From a virus: 43,805 bases of DNA. The DNA is taken from IMG/VR virus record IMGVR_UViG_3300009488_000007, positions 1 through 43,805 of that record. One strand, 5' to 3'. Each line of letters opens with the position of its first letter. Within the stretch, counting starts at the first letter, position 1. Below, in pieces: positions 3,247-43,174 of this stretch. Both the position numbers and the translations under genes were made by a program. Under the pieces are notes generated by a model. That model saw only the letters and a program-made list of their open reading frames with translations. It searched no databases and had not been told where the DNA came from.

Positions 3247-4117
3247 TTAACACCTCCTTTATGCAATCTATAGGTGATTTGTCGTCCCTAAGTCTGACAA
3301 ACCTGGGAAATACTATGCCTCCCTTATTACCGAGTTCTTGCCCTTTGACTTCTATTACTCTACCGATATAAGTTCCAGGAGTAGATGCAAATAAGGCTCT
3401 TTCCAGGTCTGTCATCCCAGAGCACTTGCCTACCTCTTGTAACAGTCCGTTGCAGTTATAGAAGCCATAACGAATGGCTCCAATGACGCCTTCATATTTA
3501 CCTTTTCCTTGTGTGAACCCCATAATAACTACATCCCATGTTTTAACTCTTTTTACTTTGAACCAATCCTTCTCAAAGCCAGATAGTTTCTTAACCACAA
3601 CACCCTCGCCTCCACGACTGATAATGCTATCAAAGACTTCCCGCTTACCCCTCCTATATAGGGGTTCTGCTGCTATCCTTTGCATACCACAAAGGGTAAG
3701 CAGGTGGATGGCTTCATGCAAAGGTACTAATCTTTCCCCAAATGGGACGTGTAGTAGGGACTCGCCTTTCCACCTAGTAATGTTTACCGCTGTGAATAAG
3801 GCTTTTCCGTTCCTATTTTGCCAATCCAAGGAGTGGACAAGTCCAGAACCAAATATAGACTTAGCGTCCTCCACTCTTCCACTTGGGGCATAGCCCTCAC
3901 CAGGTAGAATTAAATCCATGCTTTTAGGAATAACTATCCCAGTTATATGAGGAACATTATCTGTTTGTTCACTACCAGAACGATTAAAGAGGCGAACGGT
4001 TCCATCCCTAACAACTAACAACTCACTGAATCCGTTATATTTTTGTCCCACTACTAGGTCGGGAGTATCCTCTATATCATCTAAGATGGAAATGGGCATA
4101 GTTTTCATGCTACTCAT
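3239..4117 (-). CDS. ATP-dependent DNA ligase
   Basis: The 292-residue protein carries the ordered motifs of the nucleotidyltransferase superfamily: motif I KYNG (about residue 27), RLFNRSG, a glutamate strand LILPGEG, ALFTAVNI, motif IV GGEGVVVKK (about 168-176) and motif V WFKVKRVKTWDVVI, followed by an OB-fold C-terminal domain. Lys of motif I would take AMP and pass it to a 5' phosphate so that nicks are sealed, as needed after lagging-strand synthesis and recombination. Motif I is KxNG rather than the usual KxDG. Length is in the range of small phage ligases. It overlaps both neighbours by a few bases. Confidence 0.85.
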   Translation of the reverse strand: MSSMKTMPISILDDIEDTPDLVVGQKYNGFSELLVVRDGTVRLFNRSGSEQTDNVPHITGIVIPKSMDLILPGEGYAPSGRVEDAKSIFGSGLVHSLDWQNRNGKALFTAVNITRWKGESLLHVPFGERLVPLHEAIHLLTLCGMQRIAAEPLYRRGKREVFDSIISRGGEGVVVKKLSGFEKDWFKVKRVKTWDVVIMGFTQGKGKYEGVIGAIRYGFYNCNGLLQEVGKCSGMTDLERALFASTPGTYIGRVIEVKGQELGNKGGIVFPRFVRLRDDKSPIDCIKEVLNE

Positions 4118-4530
4118 TCACTCAATACCTCCTTTTGTTTAGTAGGAACCAACTCATATAACTCCAAGTTTATCAATACATAGCATATTCCCTGCTGACA
4201 GGCTAATCCACACTGCTTGCATCCTTCACAGCTAGGCAAATTATCAGCACCATACCTTAGCTTAAACCTCTTAATCCACCTACTCAAAGTGCTGGTATCC
4301 ACCTCATCACCTAGTTTCTTGGCTACCACTGACAGGGAGCCACTAACCAATACATCCTCAATCCTATGCCCATACTTCTGCTCCAGGTAACGCATCAGGG
4401 CTGTTTTGGGAATGTCTGGAATACTCACCTTTACTACTGGCTGCAACCGTTTATGCTTTCCAGGTGCTGGTTGCCTCTCCAGTAGTCCTCGTTCCTTGAG
4501 TATCTTATCTCTTGGTGATAATATTTTCAT
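4114..4530 (-). CDS. HTH protein with a C-terminal cysteine cluster
   Basis: The 138-residue product has a central helix-turn-helix-like segment (SLSVVAKKLGDEVDTSTLSRWIKRFKL, quoted here only in outline, about residues 64-90) resembling transposase or homeodomain-like DNA-binding helices. Near residues 100-116 there is a dense cluster CEGCKQCGLACQQGIC with five cysteines at spacing 2, 2, 3 and 4. The cluster could bind zinc or an iron-sulfur centre, so the protein could be a metal- or redox-responsive regulator. The family is not known to me. It is coupled to the ligase gene by a 4-base overlap. Confidence 0.75.
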   Translation of the reverse strand: MKILSPRDKILKERGLLERQPAPGKHKRLQPVVKVSIPDIPKTALMRYLEQKYGHRIEDVLVSGSLSVVAKKLGDEVDTSTLSRWIKRFKLRYGADNLPSCEGCKQCGLACQQGICYVLINLELYELVPTKQKEVLSE

Positions 4531-9207: not shown

Positions 9208-9420
9208 CTATTGATTACCTTTCTCAAAGCCCTCTGCTACCTGCCTCTTACAATGCTTACACATACATAGACCAAGGTGATATTCTGTATCCTGTTCACC
9301 ACAGAATATGCAAGGCTCGCATTTCCTGATGACTACTTCGGACTGTCCATCCTCCTGACCGACAGCCTCGTTAGGGTATAATCTACTGTCATTCCTGTTC
9401 TGTCCTATATACCCTATCAT
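9208..9420 (-). CDS. Zinc-ribbon microprotein, first gene of the long minus operon
   Basis: The 70-residue protein has a polar N-terminal half and then KCEPCIFCG and LCMCKHCKRQ, six cysteines suited to one or two zinc ions. AAAGGAGCC precedes the ATG at 9420. It is the first gene after the strong minus promoter at 9495-9523, so it should be expressed early and strongly. Many phages place host-takeover proteins at this position; that role here is inference. Confidence 0.8.
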   Translation of the reverse strand: MIGYIGQNRNDSRLYPNEAVGQEDGQSEVVIRKCEPCIFCGEQDTEYHLGLCMCKHCKRQVAEGFEKGNQ

Positions 9421-9494: not shown

Positions 9495-9523
9495 ATTATA
9501 CATCCTTCTATTGCAGTTGTCAA
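9495..9523 (-). promoter_or_regulatory. Perfect sigma70-type promoter for the long minus operon
   Basis: On the minus strand TTGACA (9523-9518) and TATAAT (9500-9495) are exact consensus hexamers separated by 17 bases. Transcription would begin near 9488 and run through 9420 to 1 and on to 43175. A dyad AGAACAAATGTGCT (9525-9538) lies directly against the -35 box, and two CTTnACATAA motifs follow at 9540 and 9555. Confidence 0.85.
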
Positions 9524-9524
9524 T

Positions 9525-9538
9525 AGAACAAATGTGCT
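9525..9538. promoter_or_regulatory. Dyad operator-like site, copy 1 (AGCACAwATGTTCT family)
   Basis: AGAACAAATGTGCT is the reverse complement of AGCACATTTGTTCT. It has two six-base arms around a two-base centre. It sits immediately upstream of the -35 box of the minus promoter at 9495-9523. Three more copies are at 9575, 10308 and 10334. Confidence 0.6.
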
Positions 9539-9539
9539 A

Positions 9540-9564
9540 CTTAACATAATCTAGCTTTACATAA
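9540..9564 (+). promoter_or_regulatory. Pair of CTTnACATAA motifs
   Basis: CTTAACATAA at 9540-9549 and CTTTACATAA at 9555-9564 are direct repeats 15 bp apart, between the divergent promoters at 9495 and 9629. The same motif accompanies the strong promoters at 12295, 12380, 26524 and 43118. Possible operator for the ribbon-helix-helix protein encoded at 42951-43082. Confidence 0.55.
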
Positions 9565-9574
9565 CATCCTTATT

Positions 9575-9588
9575 AGCTCAAATGTTCT
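9575..9588. promoter_or_regulatory. Dyad operator-like site, copy 2
   Basis: AGCTCAAATGTTCT matches the dyad family with one change in the left arm. It lies 41 bp upstream of the -35 box of the plus promoter at 9629-9657, between the two divergent promoters. Confidence 0.55.
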
Positions 9589-9628
9589 ACTCCTGCCAAC
9601 GAGTTTTCACAAATTGCCTATAAAACAC

Positions 9629-9657
9629 TTGACAAAGTGCTATCCGTGTGTTATAAT
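9629..9657 (+). promoter_or_regulatory. Perfect sigma70-type promoter for the isolated plus-strand gene
   Basis: TTGACA (9629-9634) and TATAAT (9652-9657) are exact consensus at 17-bp spacing, with TGTG just before the -10 box, close to an extended -10. Transcription would begin near 9664, directly at the foot of a hairpin, and serves the gene at 9709-10245. Confidence 0.9.
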
Positions 9658-9664
9658 TAAGATA

Positions 9665-9686
9665 CTAGGAATCGGTAACGTCCTAG
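9665..9686 (+). other. 5'-terminal hairpin of the 9709 transcript
   Basis: CTAGGA (9665-9670) and TCCTAG (9681-9686) are perfect arms around a ten-base loop, followed by A-rich sequence and the ribosome site TAGGAGG. It begins at or next to the expected transcription start, so the RNA would carry a hairpin at its very 5' end, a known way of protecting mRNA from RNase E or pyrophosphohydrolase attack. Confidence 0.6.
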
Positions 9687-9708
9687 AAAAAAGATAGGAG
9701 GATGACTA

Positions 9709-10245
9709 ATGAGTATTGAGGAACTTAGGGCACAAATGCGAGCAGCTATTGACAAAAATGACGTTGATGCGATGGACTCAATAGCAATCCAGATTGTGGC
9801 TAGCAAAAAAGAACGAGCTAAAGTTGAAGCTGATAGACTGCTCAAGGAGTCTGAAGCATTAGCGGATGTTCGGGAGAAGCTAGCCGCTAAGACACACCAA
9901 ATGCTTAAAGGAATTCCAGGGCTTGACAAGGAGCTAGTAGCAGTCAAAGCGTGGGGCTTTACTTACAAGGTTGACAAAGCTAACCCAAATGAGCCAGACA
10001 TTGTCTATAAGTCGGTTAGCTTGACAACTGCTGCAGTGAAAGCTCCCAAAGCTGGAGGTGGTGGTAGCACTGGAAAGAGTAAGGATGAGTTCGGATTGAG
10101 CCTAGGGGAGATTTTTGACAAGTTTGCTACGGACGAGGACAAAACAAAACTAGCTGCTGCTACATCAGGATCCAGTCAGTGGCAGGTCAAAGTAGCTGTC
10201 AAGAAACGAGCTATCGCTAGTGGGCTGCTAGCACCAGTAAAGTAG
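9709..10245 (+). CDS. Isolated, strongly expressed protein of unknown function (178 residues)
   Basis: This lone plus-strand gene lies between two minus-strand operons and has its own consensus promoter, 5' hairpin, AGGAGG site and hairpin terminator. The N-terminal half is a charged coiled coil (MSIEELRAQMRAAIDKNDVD to about residue 65). The middle contains VKAWGFTYKVDKANPNEPD, then a glycine-rich linker GGGGSTGKSK (about 117-126). The C-terminal domain is SLGEIFDKFATDEDK followed by a basic stretch QVKVAVKKRAIASGLLAPVK. Coiled coil, flexible linker and basic end suggest an oligomeric nucleic-acid-binding protein such as a nucleoid-like protein, ssDNA-binding accessory or regulator. The surrounding dyads would be natural targets. 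I do not know the family well enough to name it. Confidence 0.85.
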   Translation: MSIEELRAQMRAAIDKNDVDAMDSIAIQIVASKKERAKVEADRLLKESEALADVREKLAAKTHQMLKGIPGLDKELVAVKAWGFTYKVDKANPNEPDIVYKSVSLTTAAVKAPKAGGGGSTGKSKDEFGLSLGEIFDKFATDEDKTKLAAATSGSSQWQVKVAVKKRAIASGLLAPVK

Positions 10246-10260
10246 CCAACAGGACACAGA

Positions 10261-10296
10261 GGAGCGGATTAGTTGCCAGTCCGCTCCTTTTTATTT
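10261..10296 (+). terminator. Rho-independent terminator of the 9709 gene
   Basis: GGAGCGGA (10261-10268) and TCCGCTCC (10280-10287) form a perfect 8-bp stem around an 11-base loop, followed at once by TTTTTATTT. It starts 16 bases after the stop codon at 10245 and ends the single-gene transcript before the converging minus operon. Confidence 0.92.
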
Positions 10297-10307
10297 GTCC
10301 GTCAATT

Positions 10308-10321
10308 AGCACATATGTTCT
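10308..10321. promoter_or_regulatory. Dyad operator-like site, copy 3
   Basis: AGCACATATGTTCT, with arms AGCACA and TGTTCT around a two-base centre. It lies downstream of the terminator, so it does not regulate initiation at a nearby promoter. Looping to the upstream copies or a non-transcriptional role such as an origin or partition site is conceivable. Confidence 0.55.
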
Positions 10322-10333
10322 ACCCAGGCCTCT

Positions 10334-10347
10334 AGCACAAATGTTCT
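10334..10347. promoter_or_regulatory. Dyad operator-like site, copy 4
   Basis: AGCACAAATGTTCT, 26 bp after copy 3 in the same orientation, which puts the two on nearly the same helical face. The remaining gap from 10348 to 10432 has no open frame. It contains a weak bulged hairpin CCCAGTAC/GTACGGG (10377-10401) followed by TTTTTT at 10409-10414, possibly a back-up plus-strand terminator. Confidence 0.55.
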
Positions 10348-10432
10348 CCTAGCCAGCTGTCAATTATTTATCCTATCCCAGTACTATTAGCGAGGTACGG
10401 GTGGACTCTTTTTTAGATAGATATATATTTTC

Positions 10433-10633
10433 TTATGGTAGGTCTGAGAAATTACTCCAGTTCAATTTTGTCATTACCTCAACCTTACCACTCCTTTGTA
10501 TGGTGTCAATTTGGATACCCATAGGAGTGATGTAGCGTATTAGGTCGTAGTAAGGTTCATAGAAGATTTCCATCCAGCCATTGTCCGAAATGAATTTAAT
10601 AAATATCCTCTTACTAATTTCCCTGTTAGGCAT
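10433..10633 (-). CDS. Hypothetical 66-residue protein
   Basis: Last gene of the short minus operon. The product MPNREISKRIFIKFISDNGW is rich in aromatic residues (MEIFYEPYYDLIRYITPMG) and predicted beta strands, with no cysteine. GGAGGA precedes the start. It converges with the 9709 transcription unit. Function unknown. Confidence 0.75.
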   Translation of the reverse strand: MPNREISKRIFIKFISDNGWMEIFYEPYYDLIRYITPMGIQIDTIQRSGKVEVMTKLNWSNFSDLP

Positions 10634-12333: not shown

Positions 12334-12343
12334 CTTAACATAA
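12334..12343 (+). promoter_or_regulatory. CTTnACATAA motif between divergent promoters
   Basis: CTTAACATAA lies 10 bp upstream of the -35 of the minus promoter at 12295 and 36 bp upstream of the plus promoter at 12380, so a bound protein could affect both. Confidence 0.5.
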
Positions 12344-12379: not shown

Positions 12380-12408
12380 TTGACAGTTATGTAAAGTTGT
12401 GATATAAT
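12380..12408 (+). promoter_or_regulatory. Perfect sigma70-type promoter for the virion module, with internal operator motif
   Basis: TTGACA (12380-12385) and TATAAT (12403-12408), spacer 17. TTATGTAAAG, the reverse complement of CTTTACATAA, occupies 12387-12396 inside the spacer, an ideal position for repression. The first bases after the -10 box are AGGAGT and then the ATG of the small terminase gene, so the mRNA would start at or next to the start codon. Confidence 0.88.
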
Positions 12409-26512: not shown

Positions 26513-26522
26513 CTTGACATAA
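26513..26522 (+). promoter_or_regulatory. CTTnACATAA motif upstream of the capsid promoter
   Basis: CTTGACATAA abuts the CTTGACA that contains the -35 box of the promoter at 26524, making a tandem repeat with it. A second copy in reverse, TTATGTTAAA (26533-26542), lies inside the promoter spacer. The gap 26467-26582 otherwise has only AT-rich sequence. Confidence 0.5.
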
Positions 26523-26523
26523 C

Positions 26524-26553
26524 TTGACAGCATTATGTTAAATGTGTTATAAT
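26524..26553 (+). promoter_or_regulatory. Sigma70-type promoter for scaffold and capsid genes
   Basis: TTGACA (26524-26529) and TATAAT (26548-26553) are exact, spacer 18. The 13 bases TATAATAGGAGTA here are identical to those at 12403-12415. After the expected start near 26560 a seven-codon frame GTG...TGA (26561-26581) ends one base before the scaffold ATG, a possible leader cistron. An internal promoter here would boost capsid and scaffold above the giant protein. Confidence 0.85.
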
Positions 26554-34128: not shown

Positions 34129-35364
34129 ATGTCCTTTGCAACAAGATATGTAGGTGAATACCAGACAGAAATCTGGAGGGATTTGAAGGGTGATGTGGAC
34201 CTTTGGACTAGCGTTGAAGTAACCAGGTGCATAGAAAGGGCTGTGGATGACCTGAGTAGATTTTATCCGTTGGAGGCTGTTTATGAACATACCATAGTCC
34301 AGGATGTAACTGCTGAACATTGGACAGCCAGCGGTGCTGACAGAGGGTTCGTTGCATTAGGCTATAAACCTATCAAGCCTGGTTCAGAGACGGTTACGGA
34401 TAGTAGTGGTACTGCTTGTACCAAAGACACTGACTATACCATTGATTATATAAATGGTAGGATAGCCCATCATGCTGGAGGGGAAATAGATAGTAGTGAG
34501 GCTGATTGCCACATCACCTATAAGAAGGATATGTTGGGTATAGACCTGTCAGCCATTATTACCAATATGATAAGGATAGTTCATGTGGAATATCCTGTTG
34601 ATAGGGTTCCTCAGCAGAAGGTATCCTTTAGCATCTGGAATAACTTTATGTATATAGGCAGCCAAAAAACAGGAGAGTCCCAAATCCAACTTACAGACAA
34701 GGAGCATGTAGCCATTTACTACGAAAAACCTCATACTGCTCCAACGGCTACTGCTGCTCCTAGCTACCCAGCCTTCCTAGATGAGGTTATCTGTATTGGT
34801 GCTGCTGCCTATGCCTTGCTAATGATGGCTTTGAAATATGAACATCAGGCAGTTACGGATATAGCCTATGTGGATGTGGCGTTGGACAAGATAGCCCTTG
34901 CGATGAACGGTGTGGATGGGCAAATAACCGCAGCCTTAGCGGTATGGACTGATGAGAATACTGCAATAGAGCTTGTTGACAGTGCCTTGGATTCAGGAGT
35001 TGATTATCTAGGTAGTGGCGAATCCTTAATAAACACTGTCAATGTTGGTGATAATGTTCCTGAACTTCATAGGGATTATGCCAATGCTAGTGCGGCCTTA
35101 GCTGAGAGGTATTATTTGGTAGCTAGAGCTTGGGAACAGAAGCGGGCTGACATCCTTACTGTAGCTGCTAGGTACATAGACAAGGCTGATGCTTGGAATG
35201 GTGAGGCTCAAAGCAGAATTGCTAATGCTGGATTGTATTTGGAAATAGCCACTAGATTTAGGCAGGAAGGGCTAGAGAGACGAAACGAGTTCTGGTCAAT
35301 CCTCCGTGACAAAAGCGAATACAGGAAGCGAGTATCCTCCACACCAGTTAGACAGCCAGCCTAG
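34129..35364 (+). CDS. Head-tail adaptor-like structural protein (411 residues)
   Basis: The N-terminal 60 residues (LWTSVEVTRCIERAVDDLSR) resemble the helical start of gp6-type head-tail adaptors. The middle is a beta domain (YKPIKPGSETVTDSSGTACT), and from 215 on the protein is a helical coil rich in Ala with ADILTVAARYIDKADAWNGE. It is the last gene of the virion module, followed by a strong terminator. A tail tubular or short-tail component is an alternative. Confidence 0.55.
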   Translation: MSFATRYVGEYQTEIWRDLKGDVDLWTSVEVTRCIERAVDDLSRFYPLEAVYEHTIVQDVTAEHWTASGADRGFVALGYKPIKPGSETVTDSSGTACTKDTDYTIDYINGRIAHHAGGEIDSSEADCHITYKKDMLGIDLSAIITNMIRIVHVEYPVDRVPQQKVSFSIWNNFMYIGSQKTGESQIQLTDKEHVAIYYEKPHTAPTATAAPSYPAFLDEVICIGAAAYALLMMALKYEHQAVTDIAYVDVALDKIALAMNGVDGQITAALAVWTDENTAIELVDSALDSGVDYLGSGESLINTVNVGDNVPELHRDYANASAALAERYYLVARAWEQKRADILTVAARYIDKADAWNGEAQSRIANAGLYLEIATRFRQEGLERRNEFWSILRDKSEYRKRVSSTPVRQPA

Positions 35365-35374
35365 TTAGGTTGGG

Positions 35375-35410
35375 TAGAGGTTCCCGAAATGGCAACAGCG
35401 GGAACCTCTA
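35375..35410 (+). terminator. Strong terminator ending the virion operon
   Basis: TAGAGGTTCCCG (35375-35386) and CGGGAACCTCTA (35399-35410) are a perfect 12-bp stem with a 12-base loop (AAATGGCAACAG), followed by TTTATT. It lies 11 bases after the stop at 35364. The converging polymerase gene ends at 35412, right at the far foot. On the minus strand no T-run follows, so the hairpin mainly stops plus-strand transcription. Confidence 0.9.
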
Positions 35411-35411
35411 T

Positions 35412-37112
35412 TTATTCCCACCTCTCCAAATACCTTACTTCCACTGGTGTGTGAAAAGGAGCTATATCCTCCAATGGCTCAAACCTATAATTAGGAGTGA
35501 ATCCATCAACCAACAACTCATCGTGTACCTGTAACCTTGTATCCAAATCCTTACACACTATCAGTCCTCGTTTAAGAATTTCCGCCGCTGAACCTTGACA
35601 TGGATAATCAATAGCCTTACGTTTGATGCCGTCAATACTTTCCTCATCAGGAGTAGGTAGTCTTATGTTCCTGCCAAATACAGTCTTAGCTATACCAGTC
35701 CTTAAAGCGTTATCCTGTCTTGAATCAATCCAGTCCATAGCCTGTGGAAACTTTTTGCCCCACATATCCCTTAGCTGCCTAACTCTGCCAATGCTCCTAA
35801 TACCTAAATGCTCCATCAGTGTTTCATCCGTAGCTCCGTAGGTCATAGCCAGATTTGTCAGCTTACCTAATCTCCTAGCCACATCCATAAAGATTGCCAC
35901 CTGTAAATGTATATCTGCATCCTCATTCCTTGTACCGTCTGGATTGTATTTTGGCAGTGAGAAAATATGCTGCATTTCCTTATCACCAGACAGGTAGGCT
36001 AGGACTCTAGGTTCCAGCTGTTCCCAATCAACGTCCGTCCATATTCCATTATCAGGTAGTAGGATGCCTCTACAATTATGTGGATACATACTGCCATCCT
36101 TGCGGAATTTGCCTGGTATATTCTGCATATTCCTATCAGTAGAACTAGGTCGTCCAGTAATAGCATCTAGGTGGAAATGTGTGTAGGCTCTTTCATCATG
36201 GCTCCAAGGCTTTATATACGTGTTTAGTAGTTTGGCATTACCCCTATACTGCAACACAATAGAGGCTAATGGGTCATCCATCATCTCCAATACTTTCTTA
36301 GCTGAAGATAGGTTTCTCCTTCCTCGTCCTTTGGTAAATGGGAGTTTGGAGAAGATAGAATAGGCTTTCCTAGTAGCTAGGACATAGGCTACCTGTTGAG
36401 GGGAACCAGGATTGAATCCAATATCCTCACACATGGCGTAGTAGTAGTCCACCTGCTCCTGTAGCTCATTTTCTACTTGTTTCCTAGCCTCTTGGTCTAT
36501 CAACAGTCCTCTATTAGACATTTCAATCATTATAGGAATGGTCTGCATTTCTATATCCAGATACTTATGGTCAATGTCCTCCCAAAACTCGTAGTATAAC
36601 TTGAGGCAGGCTCCACTATGTTGCATACACATTTTAGCCATTACAGCCTGTTCAATATCTAAAGTGGTTCCGCCTGCTGGTAAGTATTCCCTAACCTCAT
36701 GGACTTCCATTTTGTGTATATGGGATAAGTCAACCAATCTATTAAACTTATGGCATAGCAACCTGGACATTACGGTAGTATCCTTAACATTGGTGGTATC
36801 AACCTCATATTCCCTAAGTGCGGATAGGTCAAACAAGGCATTATGGATTGCCTTAGCTATGGTAGGGTCTCTGAGTAAGTGCCAGGGAGTAGCTGGTGAT
36901 GGTTCAGGAAACAATACAAAATAGAAACTGGTTGTAGGTTTGATTGATATACCCACACCAATGGCTATACGTTCCTTGAGGCTGATAGTCTCTACATCCA
37001 CTCCTACGAGCTTAGGTGACTGTTCAACCAGCAACTGTTTGTGGATTCTGGAGTGTGGTTCCTCCTCACCCATATAATAGAAGTTGGCATTAGGGTCGTG
37101 GACAAAATGCAA
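35412..37112 (-). CDS. polA: Family A DNA polymerase with 3'-5' exonuclease domain
   Basis: The 566-residue protein starts at TTG 37112-37110, after GGAGGG. The N-terminal exonuclease shows DVETISL (Asp39, Glu41) as in DEDD nucleases. The polymerase domain has motif A DWEQLEPR (Asp362, Glu367), motif B KLTNLAMTYG (Lys417, Tyr425) and motif C VHDELLVD (Asp531). No 5' nuclease domain is present. The residue equivalent to Phe762 of E. coli Pol I is Leu421. This polymerase would copy the phage genome with the helicase (1700) and the ligase (3239). It is the last gene of the replication operon and ends at the terminator. Confidence 0.93.
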   Translation of the reverse strand: MHFVHDPNANFYYMGEEEPHSRIHKQLLVEQSPKLVGVDVETISLKERIAIGVGISIKPTTSFYFVLFPEPSPATPWHLLRDPTIAKAIHNALFDLSALREYEVDTTNVKDTTVMSRLLCHKFNRLVDLSHIHKMEVHEVREYLPAGGTTLDIEQAVMAKMCMQHSGACLKLYYEFWEDIDHKYLDIEMQTIPIMIEMSNRGLLIDQEARKQVENELQEQVDYYYAMCEDIGFNPGSPQQVAYVLATRKAYSIFSKLPFTKGRGRRNLSSAKKVLEMMDDPLASIVLQYRGNAKLLNTYIKPWSHDERAYTHFHLDAITGRPSSTDRNMQNIPGKFRKDGSMYPHNCRGILLPDNGIWTDVDWEQLEPRVLAYLSGDKEMQHIFSLPKYNPDGTRNEDADIHLQVAIFMDVARRLGKLTNLAMTYGATDETLMEHLGIRSIGRVRQLRDMWGKKFPQAMDWIDSRQDNALRTGIAKTVFGRNIRLPTPDEESIDGIKRKAIDYPCQGSAAEILKRGLIVCKDLDTRLQVHDELLVDGFTPNYRFEPLEDIAPFHTPVEVRYLERWE

Positions 37113-43146: not shown

Positions 43147-43151
43147 GTTAG

Positions 43152-43174
43152 TTATGTCAAGTCGTTATGTAAAG
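43152..43174 (-). promoter_or_regulatory. Tandem CTTnACATAA motifs upstream of the replication promoter
   Basis: On the minus strand CTTTACATAA (43174-43165) and CTTGACATAA (43161-43152) are direct repeats 13 bp apart, followed by CTTGACAAAT that contains the -35 box. Three phased repeats form a likely cooperative site, next to the gene for the RHH protein. Confidence 0.6.

Follow-up and report, generated by a model that had tools for sequence, protein, structure and literature searches.

The stretch of DNA analyzed here (the window) comprises a single virus record, 43,805 bases long, taken from a metagenome collection. Its early and replication genes, including those for a family A DNA polymerase, an ATP-dependent ligase and a primase/helicase-like ATPase, are read leftward, late genes run rightward from 12415 and leftward genes resume from 35412, resulting in a divergent layout. 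Gene 9709 is read rightward and is alone among leftward genes. The two intergenic gaps flanking it contain four copies of a 14-bp palindrome (dyads 1 to 4), promoters and further motifs (Table 1). The window represents an uncultured phage family for which the collections searched contain no close cultured relative, and its DNA polymerase is less than 60% identical to every phage record. Neither tRNA genes nor Rfam families were detected in the window, which also yielded no match to an integrase, an HTH_3 domain or a LexA/CI-type peptidase, the families of a CI-type switch (PF01381, HTH_3; PF00717, S24 peptidase) included. Tyrosine integrase (PF00589) had no match in 16 records, and two scans of bacterial and archaeal genomes revealed no provirus. 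Among the relatives, HTH_3 occurs in G020 and G017 only; in G020, and in no other relative, two divergent HTH_3 genes at 35218-35729 (part of L067) resemble a repressor switch.

Table 1. Features of the early control region around gene 9709 and of the second control region (positions in the window).
Feature	Position	Strand	Description
Flanking gene	9208-9420	-	
P_E	9495-9523	-	TTGACA-17-TATAAT, perfect sigma-70-type (12/12 consensus bases); reads left into early genes; 21 relatives aligned
Inverted repeat	9508-9526		CTATTG-N7-CAATAG; overlaps -35 box and spacer of P_E; partly conserved in relatives
Dyad 1	9525-9538	-	AGCACATTTGTTCT on the minus strand, 1 mismatch; 1 nt upstream of P_E -35 box, centre about -43.5
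Second motif	9541-9565	-	RTTATGTHAA, non-palindromic, two copies; between dyads 1 and 2
Dyad 2	9575-9588	+	AGCTCAAATGTTCT, 1 mismatch; ends 40 nt upstream of P_9709 -35 box, centre about -82.5
P_9709	9629-9657	+	TTGACA-17-TATAAT, TG before -10
Leader hairpin	9663-9688	+	5' end of 9709 mRNA, loop ATCGGTAACG
Gene 9709	9709-10245	+	178 aa; helical N-terminal part, glycine-rich linker, four-helix C-terminal domain
9709 terminator	10258-10290	+	Loop AGTTGCC, complementary to leader loop
Dyad 3	10308-10321	+	AGCACATATGTTCT, exact; just past 9709 terminator
Dyad 4	10334-10347	+	AGCACAAATGTTCT, exact; position matches second downstream dyad of G001
Flanking gene	10433-10633	-	
Late promoter, second control region	12380-12408	+	TTGACAGTTATGTAAAGTTGTGATATAAT; second motif within spacer; no dyad

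An earlier, sequence-only reading of this DNA had described four AGCACAwATGTTCT dyads that bracket one isolated gene and are confined to this control island. All four were found again at the same places, with start spacings of 50, 733 and 26, and a count over the whole record at 0-1 mismatch returned these four only. At up to 3 mismatches the same pattern gave 14 matches against 9.7 expected, which is chance level; a symmetric profile derived from these dyads and those of relatives found the four alone in the record and none in shuffles. Dyads 3 and 4 sit between converging transcription units, beyond the terminator as had been noted, and no promoter with at least 10 of 12 consensus bases lies beside them.

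With the 9709 protein and the DNA polymerase as queries, over twenty related virus records were found, some of them nearly complete. A 9709 homologue is present throughout; the copy in G030 was too diverged for the first search and is found in the same layout. The dyad profile TAGMACAWWTGTKCTA, whose ideal form is AGAACATATGTTCT, was applied to 23 records totalling 787 kb, leaving out in turn each genome that had contributed to it; G003 is a near-repeat of G002 and G032 of G010. Within 1 kb of the 9709 homologue lie 68 of the 83 matches, with 15 elsewhere, which corresponds to an approximately 55-fold higher density near the gene, and shuffled sequence gave fewer than 3 matches in total (about 3 expected by chance). 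Conservation in relatives had been suggested as a check, and the dyads accompany gene 9709 in 21 of the 23 records, a count that overstates the number of events because the relatives are not independent. The sequence-only reading had named two observations that would speak against it. Copies scattered through coding regions were not seen: the palindrome is conserved and kept out of genes, with two apparent exceptions among the far copies (G005 26022 and G023 15078). Absence of the dyads where the gene is conserved occurs in two relatives only, G015 and G017, which have a 9709 homologue without dyads nearby; G015 lacks any dyad. The consensus string had no match in the searchable literature. 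In an unrelated phage with 58% G+C (G031; L076, 9821-11437), 12 copies of AGAACATATGTTCT or near variants are packed into a 1.6-kb segment that follows a ribonucleotide reductase gene and is mostly non-coding. The palindrome alone does not fix a mechanism, because this array is near-perfect yet has no matching promoters.

The copy at 9525 ends one base upstream of the TTGACA of the perfect promoter P_E, an adjacency that the sequence-only reading had missed. Its statement that simple repression does not explain the arrangement goes too far: at least one copy occupies the classical promoter-adjacent operator position. The unit dyad-N1-TTGACA-17/18-TATAAT recurs in 17 records among those listed. 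Relative to gene 9709 it takes both orientations, preceding the gene in the window type and following it in G009, G010, G016 and G032. Overall, a promoter with at least 10 of 12 consensus bases is 0-2 nt away for 23 of 78 dyads, and exactly 1 nt away for 20 of these, compared with 19 of 3874 offsets (0.5%) for random positions 15-400 bases away. Several far copies abut perfect promoters as well (G002 32088, also in G003; G017 32367; G024 19608; G027 1365). Since the dyads hold a fixed place at promoters, far copies included, they bear the signature of operators. The remaining 55 of 78, the majority, are not adjacent to a promoter, which weighs against this reading. Dyad 2 and its counterparts in G001, G002, G005, G013 and G028 keep a gap of 40-41 nt to the -35 box of P_9709. 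The downstream dyads, without any promoter beside them, keep their place in window-type relatives, at 770-1000 bp from dyad 1. In G007, G015, G017 and G020, P_E has no adjacent dyad and still matches 11-12 of 12 consensus bases. The second motif, RTTATGTHAA, is also found at 12335, 12386, 26514-26541 and 43151-43173 of the window and in most relatives its copies are concentrated in control regions. Near the island of G020, G030 and G033, where dyads are present, it does not occur; in G016, which has few dyads, it is frequent.

We regard it as reasonably likely that the dyads serve as operators at which a dimeric DNA-binding protein regulates early transcription, that is, predicted protein-docking sites kept across this uncultured phage family. 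On dyad 1, which directly adjoins the -35 box of P_E, a dimer would meet RNA polymerase, and dyad 2 is located between P_E and P_9709. Dyads 3 and 4 would be auxiliary sites, which could either form a loop of about 780 bp with dyads 1 and 2 or block transcription arriving from the right; as a road-block they would halt leftward transcription before it enters gene 9709. Looping or road-blocking is plausible because the copies beyond the 9709 terminator are conserved. A centre near -43.5 may fit class II activation and steric repression alike. The bound dimer is probably a repressor: this is favoured because P_E already matches the consensus at 12 of 12 bases and is equally strong where relatives have no dyad beside it. 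A phage gene is a more likely source of the regulator than a host gene. A helix-turn-helix gene at about 4114-4530 is present in every relative covering the region, which makes its product a candidate regulator and nothing beyond that. G015 carries this type of gene yet no dyads, which counts against operators of an early regulator.

A class II activator of host or phage origin, bound at about -43 and stimulating P_E, would account for the constant 1-nt spacing to the -35 box, which is typical of such activation and recurs in the 17 listed records. We consider this unlikely, given that the hexamers of P_E are already perfect in most relatives and promoters without a dyad are not visibly better. 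Similarly improbable is that the dyads are SOS boxes, the arrangement of Bacillus phage GIL01, through which host LexA represses the early promoter and makes the phage respond to DNA damage. Host LexA comes into question because GAAC-N4-GTTC, which is the motif of LexA in Gram-positive bacteria (PMC3323433; PMC4551915), is part of the ideal dyad, and both GAAC half-sites are found in 28 of 78 dyads of relatives. However, none of the four dyads of the window has both halves, half-sites of relatives often read GCAC, GCTC or GTAC, and where CGAAC begins with C the dyads nearly always show A as the outer base. The motif is moreover that of Gram-positive LexA, which may not be the host's, and neither an integrase nor a provirus was found in the searches described above.

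The sequence-only reading had also proposed looping operators of the 9709 protein. Operators are supported and looping is possible; the part that fares badly is the protein as their binder. Such a protein, regulating itself and P_E by looping around its own gene, would agree with the joint occurrence of gene and dyads, and its architecture is suggestive: a self-association-type helical N-terminal part and a flexible linker precede a small basic C-terminal domain. Nevertheless, we rate this reading below both activator and LexA. The homologues of G013 (L063) and G028 (L073) have almost identical N-terminal parts and exchanged C-terminal domains downstream of identical dyads, and G015 has the gene without dyads; because of these two observations the 9709 product is probably not the dyad binder. 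Furthermore, no DNA-binding family or fold was matched by the protein. The least probable of the readings, and a very improbable one, is that the island serves as an iteron-bearing replication origin or as a centromere-like partition site. The repeats do cluster in one island, and an origin could share it. However, far copies lie at promoters too, and the spacing to -35 boxes is fixed. Cumulative GC skew, proposed as a check, has no extremum at the island; the minimum, near 12.3 kb, lies about 2 kb off and coincides with the switch in gene direction. Same-direction repeats in register, an AT-rich region and an initiator gene, by which iteron origins are recognized, were not found, the G+C content of 9501-10500 (0.428) being like that of the rest. 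Among the 39 window proteins scanned with Pfam there was no plasmid replication gene and no partition gene of the ParA/ParB or ParM/ParR type. We have set both readings aside because the skew turns with gene direction and neither partition nor initiator genes were found.

The clustered predicted dimer sites at divergent promoters, with looping possible between them, resemble the lambda operators OL and OR, which are likewise clustered dimer sites at divergent promoters that loop between clusters. In contrast to lambda, no CI or Cro homologue is seen here and the bracketed gene is probably not the repressor. The operators and stoperators of the L5-type immunity repressor in cluster A mycobacteriophages are similar in that sites lie both at the early promoter and at promoterless places. 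Stoperators are asymmetric and numerous genome-wide (PMC9283540), whereas the sites described here are palindromes nearly confined to one island, and no homologous repressor was seen. In GIL01, a phage of Bacillus thuringiensis, the SOS boxes (dinBox) are bound by host LexA together with the phage protein gp7 (PMC4551915). Both phages combine a 14-bp palindrome built on GAAC-N4-GTTC at an early promoter with a second, weaker site nearby. GIL01 boxes are located downstream of the P1 start (PMC4551915), whereas in the present phage the site lies next to the -35 box on its upstream side. In addition, many half-sites depart from GAAC here, and sites also occur beyond a terminator.

The 9709 protein belongs to no family in Pfam, PHROGs or NCBIfam and had no match in the phage collection. 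Its whole-protein model is poor (pLDDT 68), and the C-terminal domain modelled alone reached a pLDDT of about 90 in its helices without a clear structural match. This domain, behind the glycine-rich linker, has been swapped among close relatives; the family has at least three types of it.

The leader hairpin of the 9709 mRNA varies between relatives and its pairing is kept: across 18 sequences, both sides of the stem had changed in 53 cells, compared with 22 in shuffles, and the covariation score was 0.52 compared with 0.20. The loop consensus AGYGGYAAYR is complementary over 6-7 bases to that of the terminator loop, AGTTRCCA, in all 19 relatives where both were found (GGTAAC and GTTGCC in the window). 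Of the loop cells, 96.8% can pair. The sliding and shuffle controls behind these values leave shared descent in place. A kissing contact between the 5' and 3' ends of the mRNA through these loops is suggested, and suggestive only, because it is based on complementarity and one-sided changes. The terminator at 35373-35412 (late genes/DNA polymerase gene) has a loop of the 9709-leader-hairpin type, AAATGGCAACAG, with similar loops in G005, G007, G013, G015 and G017. Leaders of the 9709 homologues L028 (G007), L034 (G010) and L064 (G015) contain perfectly complementary stretches of 14-15 nt, such as TCTATCACTCCTGGG and CCCAGGAGTGATAGA, which lie on both sides of small open reading frames located between promoter and 9709 homologue; their complementarity suggests a long-range stem.

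A regulator of a novel family that loops DNA around gene 9709 could act together with pairing of the mRNA leader and terminator loops, which would amount to a two-layer early switch unseen in cultured phages; we think this combination rather unlikely. The complementarity of the two loops may be of wider interest than the dyads. For the early control region of this uncultured phage family, the sites, promoters and spacings presented here constitute a first regulatory map. They also make the search for the regulator concrete, as a dimer reading TAGMACAWWTGTKCTA can now be sought, and supply a family-wide comparison against which candidates may be tested.
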